Below, one piece after another: positions 38,866-43,629 of a stretch of DNA of 64,000 nucleotides. Below the pieces are notes generated by a model that had not been told where the DNA came from, did no database searches, and saw only the letters and a program-made list of their open reading frames with translations. Each line of letters opens with the position of its first letter. Within the stretch, counting starts at the first letter, position 1. Made by a program: the position numbers and the translations under genes. The stretch spans positions 1,984,001-2,048,000 of the forward strand of contig NZ_JBBNAC010000001.1 of NCBI RefSeq assembly GCF_037996825.1. The letters run 5' to 3'. Source of the DNA: Bdellovibrio sp. BCCA (lineage in GTDB: Bacteria; Bdellovibrionota; Bdellovibrionia; Bdellovibrionales; Bdellovibrionaceae).

Positions 38866-40275
38866 CTATTTCCCACTTTGTCCTGGCTCAATTTCTTGAA
38901 GTTTTCGATACAAAGTTTTGCGATCAATTCCCAAAGCTTTCGCCGTTTGTTCTTTAGCTTTGTTATTTCGTTCATAGACAAACTGCACGTACTTTTTTTC
39001 AAGTTCATGCAGAGGTTCTACCTCTTCCCCAAAACGGAAAACAAAGGCATTTTTTTTGTCTTCGTCGAAAGTTTTTTCCATCAAAACAGATTCTTCAAAA
39101 AGCGTGAAAGCACTTTGATCAATCTCCGTTCCGACAGTTAATACGACCGCGCGTTCAATCGCATTTTCAAGTTCACGCACATTGCCGCGCCAAGGACGAG
39201 TCAGAAGATATTCTTTGGCATTCTTTTTAAAGCCGACAATATTTGAACCATTCAATGCATTGTATTTTTTTAGAAAATGCTCCGCGAGAGGCATAATGTC
39301 TTCCCTGCGCTCACGCAAAGCCGGAATTTTTATCGGAATGACATTAAGACGGAAAAACAAATCTTCGCGGAATCTTTTTTCTTGCACTTCGTGACGAAGA
39401 TCTTTGTGAGTGGCGGCAATCACCCGCACATCCACAGAGCGTGTTTGATTTTCCCCGACCCGCTTGATTTCTTTTTCCTGCAAGACGCGAAGAAGTTTTG
39501 CCTGCAAAGTGAGATTCAAATCCCCAATTTCGTCGAGGAATAAAGTTCCACCGTCGGCCTCTTCAAAAAGACCGACCTTTTTATCAACGGCCCCCGTAAA
39601 GGAACCTTTGGCGTGACCGAAAAGTTCAGACTCTAAAAGATTTTCTGGAATGGCAGAGCAGTTGATGGCGACAAAAGGTTTTTTGGCGCGCGGACTCCAA
39701 GTGTGAATGGCTTTAGCAAAAACTTCTTTCCCCGTTCCGCTTTCTCCAGAGATAGAAACCGTGGAAGAACTTTTTGCAACCCGTTTTGCAAGATCTAAGA
39801 TGCGCAGGATGCTTTCACTTTTTCCGATGATCCCCTCAGGATGCAGGCCTTTGCTTAAGTCCAACGTTTCACGCAACGTCTTATTTTCGGCATTGAGTTT
39901 ATTAAACTTAAAGGCTCTTTGTGCTGAGATAAGAAGCTGAGGAAAATGTAACGGTTTTACGACGAAGTCATAAGCTCCCGCTTCGATAACTTCCACCGCA
40001 GTTTCAACGTCGTTTGAAACCGTGATCAAAATAATAGGAATTTGAATCCCTTCAGCACGAAGTCTTTTAATAAATTCTAAACCTGACATGCTTGGCAGAT
40101 TTAAATCTGAAATGATGGCATCAGGTTGGATTTCTTTAGTCACGACCTGATGGAGAGCTTCGCGAGGATCTTCGCTGTGAATGATTTGGATATCTTTTTG
40201 GCGAAAATAGGCTGTCGCTAATTCTGCTAAATCAATGTCGTCCTCAATGAGAAGGATCTTTTTTTGTTTATCCAT
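38866..40275 (-). CDS. Sigma-54-dependent response regulator (NtrC family)
   Basis: A 469-residue transcription activator from ATG 40275 (GGAGGATGC before it). Receiver domain 1-120 has Asp57 (ISDLNLPSMSG) and Lys107 (VVKP). The AAA+ domain has Walker A GESGTGKE (177-184), the sigma-54 contact loop as GSFTGA (224-229) in place of the usual GAFTGA, and LFLDEIGDL. A Fis-type helix-turn-helix ends it (AKALGIDRKTLYRKLQEI). It probably takes phosphate from the CHASE hybrid kinase and HPt protein encoded just upstream. Confidence 0.94.
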   Translation of the reverse strand: MDKQKKILLIEDDIDLAELATAYFRQKDIQIIHSEDPREALHQVVTKEIQPDAIISDLNLPSMSGLEFIKRLRAEGIQIPIILITVSNDVETAVEVIEAGAYDFVVKPLHFPQLLISAQRAFKFNKLNAENKTLRETLDLSKGLHPEGIIGKSESILRILDLAKRVAKSSSTVSISGESGTGKEVFAKAIHTWSPRAKKPFVAINCSAIPENLLESELFGHAKGSFTGAVDKKVGLFEEADGGTLFLDEIGDLNLTLQAKLLRVLQEKEIKRVGENQTRSVDVRVIAATHKDLRHEVQEKRFREDLFFRLNVIPIKIPALRERREDIMPLAEHFLKKYNALNGSNIVGFKKNAKEYLLTRPWRGNVRELENAIERAVVLTVGTEIDQSAFTLFEESVLMEKTFDEDKKNAFVFRFGEEVEPLHELEKKYVQFVYERNNKAKEQTAKALGIDRKTLYRKLQEIEPGQSGK

Positions 40276-40332
40276 GCATCCTCCGGGTCTTCCTTTATGG
40301 TTATATACTGGGGCAGATATCCGCAACCTAAA

Positions 40333-40349
40333 TGTGGCGATTTGCCACA
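40333..40349. promoter_or_regulatory. Inverted repeat TGTGGC-N5-GCCACA
   Basis: A perfect six-base inverted repeat 58 bases before the sigma-54 activator start; likely an operator, perhaps for autoregulation. Confidence 0.45.
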
Positions 40350-40401: not shown

Positions 40402-40430
40402 TTGTCAGGCCTTTGGATTGCAACTACTAA
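40402..40430 (+). promoter_or_regulatory. Predicted promoter of the small RNA candidate
   Basis: TTGTCA (40402-40407), 17 bases, TACTAA (40425-40430), pointing rightward with no protein gene downstream on that strand. Confidence 0.5.
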
Positions 40431-40436
40431 ATGACG

Positions 40437-40549
40437 TCGGGTGATATTCCCCGAAAAGAATATGTGTCCGTCGCAAAAATCCACGATTGCAACGGATAAG
40501 CGGCCGCCCCTTCTTGTGCATTCTTCGGAAAGGGCGGCCTTCCTTTTTT
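40437..40549 (+). ncRNA. Candidate structured small RNA of about 113 bases
   Basis: Downstream of the predicted promoter there are three hairpins in series. TCGGG/CCCGA lies at 40437-40454. A ten-base stem with one C-A mismatch has arms 40467-40476 and 40487-40496. The third, a terminator, pairs GGCCGCCC (40502-40509) with GGGCGGCC (40532-40539) and ends in a T-run (40544-40549). The terminator orientation fits only rightward transcription, while both neighbouring protein genes run leftward. No known riboswitch consensus was recognised. Confidence 0.55.
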
Positions 40550-40553
40550 AAAA

Positions 40554-40835
40554 TTATTTTTCAAGATGTCGCAAAAGTTCAGAAACTTTTTGCGCAAGCT
40601 CACCGCAAATTTCTTTGATTTGTTTTATATCTTGCGAGATCGAAGCGTCCTCAAGACGCTTTCCTAGTTCAGTTAATTCGGGAAACAAGAAAGTCACGGC
40701 GTTGCCTTTGATCTGATGTCCGACCTTCTTTACGAAGTCCCAGTCAGGATTTTCAAAATCTATTTTCGCAAGCTCTTCTTGCCGACGTCTTAAATATTTT
40801 ATCCGGGATTCTAAAGGCACATCAAATATAGCCAT
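40554..40835 (-). CDS. Histidine phosphotransfer (HPt) protein
   Basis: A 93-residue helical protein with the HPt motif VGHQIKGNAVTFLFPELTELGKRLE; His40 is the expected phosphorylation site. It follows the CHASE hybrid kinase by four bases. It should shuttle phosphate from that kinase's receiver domain, most simply to the sigma-54 regulator encoded next. Confidence 0.9.
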   Translation of the reverse strand: MAIFDVPLESRIKYLRRRQEELAKIDFENPDWDFVKKVGHQIKGNAVTFLFPELTELGKRLEDASISQDIKQIKEICGELAQKVSELLRHLEK

Positions 40836-40839
40836 ACCT

Positions 40840-43629
40840 TTACCCTCGATGATTTAAATAAAAATAAATCTCTTGAACCAGAAGTTCCCCAGAAACAGGC
40901 TTCGTGATTTGTCCATTGCAACCCGCAGCCAGGCAGCTTTCAATCTCTTCATTCAAAGCGTGCGCCGTCAGCGCAATCACGGGCTTCGTAAATCCTTTTT
41001 GACGAATGCGCTTGGTCGCCTCTTTGCCGTCCATCTTAGGAATTTGAATATCCATAAGAATAATATCCGGCGAATTCTTAAAGGCCGCGTCCACAGCTTT
41101 TTCTCCATCATCAGCGACAGTAACTTCAGCTCCGGCCGTCATAAGGAAATGTTGAAAGATCTCTTGATTGTCTTCAGAGTCTTCCACCAACAAAACGCGA
41201 ACACCTTTAAGAAGATTTTTTAAATCCAACGAAGACCAATCAATAGCGTGCGAAGGCTTTTCATCAAAAGTGTTTACCACTTTTAGTACAGTCGCCTCTT
41301 GGCTGGATTTCATATTCAGATATTCTTTAGCAAGGCCGCGCAGTGGTATACGCAAACAGAAGGTGGAGCCTTTTCCAATGGAAGATTCAAGAAGGAACAA
41401 ATCCCCTCCTAAAAGCTCTGCCAAACGCCGAGAAAGAGCTAAACCAAGACCGGTGCCGCCATACTTGCGAGTCGTTGAAACATCACCTTGAGAAAATGGT
41501 TTAAAAAGATTTTCGCGATTCTTTTCGCTGATACCAATACCGCTGTCTTGCACTTGGAATTCTAAGAATTCTTCTTTTTCGTCATTCACATAGGTCTTAT
41601 ATAAAAGTTTAACTGCGCCTTTTTCTGTGAACTTAATGGCGTTTCCGACAATGTTCACAAGAATCTGCTTAAGGCGCACGTCATCGGTAATAACATAGCC
41701 TGGCACATTGCTGAGTTTTGCGATATTGAACTGAATTTTTTTATCGGAAGCGCGCACTTCCATAATGGATTTGATTTCATGAATGAGGTTTTCTAGATTC
41801 ACTTGCGCCATTTCAAAATGAAGTTTACCCGCCTCCACTTTAGAAATATCCAAGATATCATCAATCAAACGCGCCAGCTCTTTTCCGTTACGTTTGATGC
41901 TTTTAACGATTTGGGTTTTCTCATCCCCTTCAAGTTCATCGTCGGCTAAGATTTCCGAATAACCAACGATCACTCCCAGAGGCGTTCTGATTTCATGACT
42001 CATATTTGCCAAGAAAGAACTTTTCATAAAGTTCGCGTCCTCTGCACGGCGAAGTAGAATCGCTTTATCATAAGACATCGCAAACTGACCAAATACCCCG
42101 ACCAGAGCATACTCCATCACTTTGGAATCAGCCAGACCTTCTGGTCCTTTCATGATAACCAGAATCGAAGTGCTTTTACCGGACTCATGAAGTACGGAGC
42201 GCATTAAATAACAGGATTCATTTTCAAAAGTTTCACGCACTCCCGGAGGACACAACGCCAACAATCTTGTGAGTTCCTCAGAGGGAATTTTTGTTGAAAG
42301 AACTCCGTCTCTTAAAAGTTCGTCAAATTCCAACGGCACATCCAAAATGTCTGGAAAGGATCTTAAAACTTTTTGAAAACGTTTTTCAAAAGGTCCCTTG
42401 TGTTCGCGTACGAAAACCGCACAGTCTTCAATTTGGAAAACATTTTCCAAATGCCCACAGAATTTTTCAAAAAGATTACTTCCCTCGATAGCCGAAGAAA
42501 GATCCGCAATCACAGTATTAAGCCTTCTAAAAAGAGCGATCTCCGTGGATTTACTTTTTGATAATTGTGCCAAAGAGTCTTTATGACGCTCACTGAATTT
42601 TAAAAACTGCTGCGTAGACCATAAAGCCAAGAAAATCACCGAGAGCATGACCAATGTCACAAAAGCAAAAAGAAAAGGCACGTAGCGTTCATACCAGTTG
42701 AAGAAATGCGGCAATGGCTCAAAATGCAGAGTCCACGTTTTATCGAAGACCTGAATTTCTTTATCGACAGAAATATCTACGGGCTCTTTCTCATCTAAAT
42801 TTTTAGAGGGAAAACGCTCATAAATGGGAATCGTTCTCCCAAGTTTCTTTTCATAAATATAGATTTTATAATTTACTTTCTCATCGTAGAACTGCGGAAC
42901 ACCCAAGGCACCGTTAAAGAATTTTGTGATCCGCACAATAGAATACACAAAACCCAAGAGCGCGCTTTTAGGCTCAGCTTCTCCTGTGACATCCGTGGTT
43001 TTCGTTACGGGTAAATAAATCAAGAAACCCTGTTGATTCGACTCCGAATCATCTTGCACCAAAACCACGGGGTCTGTGATTGCAAGAGAGTTCGTTAAAA
43101 CTGCCTTATCCATCGCGGATTGCCGACTCAGGTCCGAGTACATATCAAATCCCAACGCTTTTTTATTTCGCCAGTCTTCGGGCTGAATAAGAACGATAGA
43201 AGTATGAAGAGCTCTTTCTCCCTCCGGCCAGAACTTAAAGTCTGGATAGCCATTGTCGCGCATTCTTTTTTCTAAAGAAGCGGTTCCGTCTTTTTCGATT
43301 TTTTCAGCAAAAGCAATTCCCTGCAGACCCGGAAAACGACGAAGCAACTCGGAAGACTCTATATATGTCTGAAACTCTTTAGGACTGGGCACACCGCTTA
43401 ACTGAAAATAAGCGCGTGTATCCGTAAGAGCCTGGCCATAACCAAAAAACTCTCGACCGATTGTCGAAGTCACTTTCTGAATCTCTGCTTCTAAGCGAGC
43501 ATTCCATTCTTTTTCTAAGTGCACCTTCACAGTCCACCAGCTAAAAACGCTCACTGAGATAATAATAAGAAGAACCAAAAAGACATTCCACTCATGCGAT
43601 AATACAAAAACTCTCTTTAGTCTTTTCAC
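40840..43629 (-). CDS. CHASE-domain hybrid sensor histidine kinase
   Basis: A 929-residue inner-membrane sensor. A membrane segment at about 15-33 is followed by a periplasmic CHASE domain to about 270 (FPGLQGIAFAEKIE, KALGFDMYSDLSRQSAMDKA, GFLIYLPVTK). A second membrane segment lies at about 310-332, then a coiled coil and a GAF-like region. The kinase core follows with FLANMSHEIRTPLGVIVGYSEIL and QILVNIVGNAIKF, DSGIGI and GTGLGL. A C-terminal receiver (VRVLLVEDSEDN...IILMDIQIPKMDG...ITKPV) completes a phosphorelay kinase. CHASE domains bind small extracellular ligands. The gene heads an operon with the HPt protein. Confidence 0.95.
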   Translation of the reverse strand: MKRLKRVFVLSHEWNVFLVLLIIISVSVFSWWTVKVHLEKEWNARLEAEIQKVTSTIGREFFGYGQALTDTRAYFQLSGVPSPKEFQTYIESSELLRRFPGLQGIAFAEKIEKDGTASLEKRMRDNGYPDFKFWPEGERALHTSIVLIQPEDWRNKKALGFDMYSDLSRQSAMDKAVLTNSLAITDPVVLVQDDSESNQQGFLIYLPVTKTTDVTGEAEPKSALLGFVYSIVRITKFFNGALGVPQFYDEKVNYKIYIYEKKLGRTIPIYERFPSKNLDEKEPVDISVDKEIQVFDKTWTLHFEPLPHFFNWYERYVPFLFAFVTLVMLSVIFLALWSTQQFLKFSERHKDSLAQLSKSKSTEIALFRRLNTVIADLSSAIEGSNLFEKFCGHLENVFQIEDCAVFVREHKGPFEKRFQKVLRSFPDILDVPLEFDELLRDGVLSTKIPSEELTRLLALCPPGVRETFENESCYLMRSVLHESGKSTSILVIMKGPEGLADSKVMEYALVGVFGQFAMSYDKAILLRRAEDANFMKSSFLANMSHEIRTPLGVIVGYSEILADDELEGDEKTQIVKSIKRNGKELARLIDDILDISKVEAGKLHFEMAQVNLENLIHEIKSIMEVRASDKKIQFNIAKLSNVPGYVITDDVRLKQILVNIVGNAIKFTEKGAVKLLYKTYVNDEKEEFLEFQVQDSGIGISEKNRENLFKPFSQGDVSTTRKYGGTGLGLALSRRLAELLGGDLFLLESSIGKGSTFCLRIPLRGLAKEYLNMKSSQEATVLKVVNTFDEKPSHAIDWSSLDLKNLLKGVRVLLVEDSEDNQEIFQHFLMTAGAEVTVADDGEKAVDAAFKNSPDIILMDIQIPKMDGKEATKRIRQKGFTKPVIALTAHALNEEIESCLAAGCNGQITKPVSGELLVQEIYFYLNHRG

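Follow-up and report, generated by a model that had tools for sequence, protein, structure and literature searches.

Two described systems place a small RNA gene beside that of a sigma-54 regulator. In Vibrio, the qrr1 gene is oriented opposite to luxO and located 151 bp upstream of it (PMC8043402), and in the Pseudomonas CbrAB-CrcZ system a two-component sigma-54 activator directly activates the adjoining sRNA gene (PMC8871633). Further, small RNAs such as SdhX, CpxQ, NarS and DicF are derived from 3´UTRs (PMC9438474). For Bdellovibrio bacteriovorus, attack-phase sRNAs and merRNA are described as intergenic non-coding RNAs, several of the sRNAs being of FliA type (PMC3627812).

The locus presented here lies in a stretch of 64,000 nucleotides from Bdellovibrio sp. 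BCCA, which we call the window. A rightward non-coding unit (about 40405-40549) is found in an intergenic space of about 278-279 bases, which extends from the start codon (40275) of a sigma-54-dependent response regulator gene (38866..40275, minus strand) to the end (40554) of a gene for an HPt phosphotransfer protein (40554..40835, minus strand; Pfam Hpt). Next to the latter is the gene of a CHASE-domain hybrid histidine kinase with a C-terminal receiver (40840..43629, minus strand; Pfam CHASE, HisKA, HATPase_c, Response_reg). The regulator consists of a receiver, an AAA+ sigma-54 activator domain and a Fis-type HTH (Pfam Response_reg, Sigma54_activat, HTH_8), and its orthologues in 12 further genomes of the genus are 74-85% identical to it. 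As the first-pass annotation had stated, both flanking genes run leftward on the gene map and the unit carries no protein frame, nor does any plausible one lie in the intergenic space; a small protein was rejected, as only short frames exist and none has a convincing ribosome site.

In layout the unit resembles both LuxO-qrr1 and CbrB-CrcZ, but it is a member of neither. With Vibrio LuxQ-LuxU-LuxO-qrr1 it shares a hybrid kinase, a separate HPt, a sigma-54 regulator and a divergent, predicted sigma-54 RNA gene by the regulator gene, the distance from RNA start to regulator start being about 158 nt here and 151 bp for qrr1-luxO (PMC8043402). The window regulator, however, reaches 367.6 bits on the LuxO model against a cut-off of 800, the kinase stays far below the LuxQ cut-off, and the palindromes described below are unlike the LuxO site TTGCAWWWTGCAA (PMC10162802). 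The window RNA gave no Qrr match in Rfam up to an E of 5 and is derived from a stress operon. The likeness to CbrAB-CrcZ is the sigma-54 activator with an RNA gene adjacent, whereas the CrcZ gene lies downstream of cbrB, and no sequence relation to CrcZ was seen in the Rfam search. Qrr RNAs pair in an Hfq-dependent manner and CrcZ acts by binding Crc/Hfq, whereas the window genome yielded no Hfq family match; sRNA pairing here would therefore need another chaperone or none. The 3´UTR-derived sRNAs resemble our case in that an operon mRNA carries a structured RNA in its 3´ part or between cistrons (PMC9438474), but the window unit has its own predicted promoter and no mRNA. The B. bacteriovorus sRNAs are likewise intergenic non-coding RNAs from the same kind of organism, although none is described in the available part of that source as sigma-54-dependent or tied to a csbD operon (PMC3627812).

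The promoter of the unit is, judging by sequence, of the sigma-54 class, which is switched on by activators of the same type as the neighbouring regulator. The predicted site, AGGCCTTTGGATTGCA (40407..40422, plus strand), has its GG-N10-GC core at 40408-40421, and transcription would be expected to start near 40433. When the sigma-54 consensus was scored across the 220 bases preceding the regulator start in 13 same-genus loci, the best site fell at an offset of 129-142 from that start in 12 of them (116 in G015), and the alignment of relatives shows no variation in the GG and TGC columns. By its own score, the site in the window is no more than marginal (shuffle P 0.07), so it is the conserved position on which the assignment in the window is based. 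An rpoN gene was found in the window genome. The first-pass annotation had instead pointed to a -35/-10 pair, TTGTCA-N17-TACTAA. Its -10 box has three of six matches, a sigma-70 scan does not list the pair and the two hexamers lack conservation in relatives, and a sigma-70 promoter was hence rejected.

Between the sigma-54 promoter and the regulator gene there are two palindromes, neither assigned to a strand. The first, TGTGGC-N5-GCCACA (TGTGGCGATTTGCCACA; 40333..40349), is conserved in orthologues and is the sole exact copy in the 4.0-Mb genome. The second, TGGGGCAGATATCCGCA (40309..40325), is degenerate and conserved in most orthologues. They are spaced by 24 nt in the window and the nearest relatives, and those of more distant relatives are more degenerate. 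From their position, the regulator probably binds both; activator sites of this activator class are usually inferred in this way. A wider regulon addressed through the palindrome was considered and rejected, as there is one exact site in the genome and one-mismatch matches equal the control. The locus also offers a clean candidate for a target site of this relay.

The three hairpins claimed by the first-pass annotation do fold: region 40437-40549 has an MFE of -41.3 kcal/mol (z -3.58), and 0 of 200 shuffles were as good. Directly 3´ of the predicted start is the 5´ hairpin P0 (40437..40454, plus strand), and most orthologues have a G-rich/C-rich hairpin matching it equally far from the promoter. 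It is followed by the two-hairpin RNA element P1-P2 (40463..40546, plus strand), in which P1 spans 40465-40498 and P2 spans 40502-40539, each window stem having one mismatch. The tail TTCCTTTTTT 3´ of P2 (40540..40549, plus strand) makes P2 an intrinsic terminator. The proposal of a GC-rich hairpin with a T-run thus stands for the window, while most relatives have no U-run: the T-run is unbroken only in the window genome, where 8 of 12 positions are T, compared with 3-7 in relatives. In six relatives (G002, G023, G008, G012, G021 and G022) the P2 loop reads UUCUCC, which is complementary to Shine-Dalgarno sequences.

P1-P2 is present in 11 of the 13 species having the locus, the window included (the others are G002, G023, G008, G005, G012, G021, G022, G011, G001 and G019). 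The order of the hairpins is that of the window throughout, and many of these species also have similar loops. The first-pass annotation had staked its RNA on conservation of the stems in relatives keeping the flanking genes, and such conservation was found, with support from covariation. In the 11-species alignment 94% of cells are paired and 15 of 20 pairs changed on both sides, and none of 500 shuffles did as well, although this count is no probability, because related sequences were aligned and the structure itself was taken from this alignment. In slid registers of the alignment, pairing falls to 41-57%. A cleaner test is a model built without the window, which matches 40463-40546 with 57.6 bits and an E of 5.5e-11 (such E-values being rough) and nothing else in the 64 kb. 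Among 66 genomes of the family, strong matches occur at this locus only and once per genome, which rules out a repeat or mobile hairpin. The element is absent at the locus in G009 and G015 of the same genus and in G035 and G049 of the sister genus; since the former two have the locus, it is dispensable. An Rfam search, including one at a permissive threshold, gave no family match, the best being a chance-level isrD (16.5 bits against a gathering threshold of 37). P1-P2 represents an RNA family that is supported by covariation, not contained in Rfam and linked to a single sigma-54 phosphorelay of predatory bacteria.

In most relatives the space between regulator and HPt gene holds a rightward operon that the same promoter would drive. 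Its genes encode an OmpA-like lipoprotein, a CsbD protein, a DUF883-like protein and a GlsB/YeaQ-type protein (PF04226), with DUF1328 in G005; the lipoprotein, named by its appearance, and the DUF883-like protein have no Pfam match. The regulator-HPt gap is 1.0-1.5 kb in relatives with the operon and 538 bases in G001 and G019, where GlsB only is encoded; where no genes are left, it is 279 bases in the window and 225 in G009. P1-P2 lies directly 3´ of csbD in G002, G023, G008, G005, G012, G021, G022 and G011, precedes glsB or the DUF883-like gene in full operons, and is found within the glsB leader in G001 and G019. In G035 of the sister genus (locus L121), an ordinary terminator with an 11-bp stem and a T-run is located 3´ of csbD in place of P1-P2. 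The operon was reduced more than once in the clade. P1-P2 was kept despite loss of the upstream genes (G001, G019), of the following gene (G011) or of all genes (the window), and G009 lost all operon genes together with P1-P2 and kept the promoter. The window retains activator sites, sigma-54 promoter, 5´ hairpin and P1-P2, and every coding region of the operon is gone. On the regulator tree, several inner forks of which are weakly supported, the window species is placed among operon-bearing species, and the simplest reading is therefore that the loss of genes is derived. Relocation of the operon genes was rejected, as the sole csbD-family match in the window genome (G000), which has a similar gene adjoining, and the sole glsB-family match there look like different paralogues. 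The two adjacent CsbD-like genes of that genome, near flagellar-looking genes (C1:3234000-3236500, locus L123, 1218-1826), are apparently not the operon copy.

We consider it somewhat probable that the adjacent phosphorelay controls the unit and that this is a sigma-54-dependent gene for a non-coding RNA, a stand-alone small regulatory RNA that arose by erosion of the operon. The CHASE hybrid kinase would pass phosphate via the HPt protein to the regulator, which would bind both palindromes and activate sigma-54 polymerase at 40407-40422. The resulting transcript of about 115 nt (40433-40549) would comprise the 5´ hairpin, P1-P2 and the terminator. In relatives the same promoter would drive the stress/envelope operon with P1-P2 after csbD, and the P1-P2 RNA could be either released from operon mRNA or act inside it. 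In the window, with protein genes lost and non-coding parts kept, the RNA most likely acts alone. We infer that the unit is transcribed and that its RNA acts in trans on targets. Against this reading, no target was found, the genome gave no Hfq match and two relatives that have the locus, G009 and G015, lack P1-P2. A functional RNA is favoured over a purely local cis element because P1-P2 survives upstream, downstream and combined gene loss. More tentatively, we suggest that this might be an sRNA gene at birth: a stress-operon mRNA carrying an active two-hairpin RNA would have lost its protein genes, and the RNA would now stand in its own right as a terminated output of the relay; the layout would have converged on that of LuxU-LuxO-qrr1, in a genome with no detectable Hfq. 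The relatives form a graded series (full operon, reduced operon, RNA alone, nothing), in which it can be tested directly whether an sRNA gene originated from the non-coding part of an mRNA.

The main rival to the stand-alone sRNA reading is a relic. Promoter, 5´ hairpin and P1-P2 would then be decaying leftovers, and the transcript would at most keep polymerase out of the HPt gene. We regard this as possible, if rather doubtful. Repeated reduction of the operon, with G009 having already lost P1-P2 but kept the promoter, would agree with it, and so would the two mismatches in the window stems and the lack of P1-P2 in two relatives. Also, window identity to G001 and G019 is 56-68% in P1-P2 and 44-56% in spacers, the former being little above the latter, and constraint on the window P1-P2 after gene loss is not proven by such a comparison. 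On the other hand, the activator sites, the sigma-54 core, the 5´ hairpin, P1 and P2 can all still be recognised in the window though every coding region is lost, and the window has a T-run that is missing in relatives.

That P1-P2 is instead a cis element, namely an intercistronic attenuator, mRNA stabiliser or processing site that balances csbD against glsB or the DUF883-like gene, with the window copy now serving as terminator only, appears unlikely. In its favour, P1-P2 in full operons is always immediately 3´ of csbD and 5´ of the next gene, and the ordinary terminator of G035 occupies the same position; in a variant of this explanation, the P2 loop, which reads UUCUCC in many species, might base-pair with the Shine-Dalgarno sequence of the gene that follows. 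The element was, however, retained without csbD (G001, G019) and without a following gene (G011 and the window), the U-run is missing in most copies, and P1 and P2 are conserved jointly. The proposal of the first-pass annotation, a sigma-70 RNA antisense to the leader of the activator mRNA, is very improbable. An RNA starting near 40433 heads away from the regulator start codon, so it would overlap the leader only if HK-HPt transcription reads through; the gene order would allow such an HK-HPt-regulator transcript, if one exists. The required -35/-10 pair is the weak, unconserved one, and duplexes with local start regions are ordinary, as 23 (regulator), 56 (HPt) and 31 (HK) of 200 shuffles were as good in energy. 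What stands of that annotation is an RNA in a phosphorelay locus that is non-coding, structured and probably terminated; its promoter class and antisense role do not.

Two minor observations concern the flanking genes. The G023 regulator gene (locus L120, about 820-2203) is in two frames covering residues 1-123 and 131-467, which represents either a natural break or an assembly error. The window HPt protein (40554-40835) evolves much faster than its partners, with 50-55% identity to the nearest relatives, against 69-76% for the kinase and 82-85% for the regulator.
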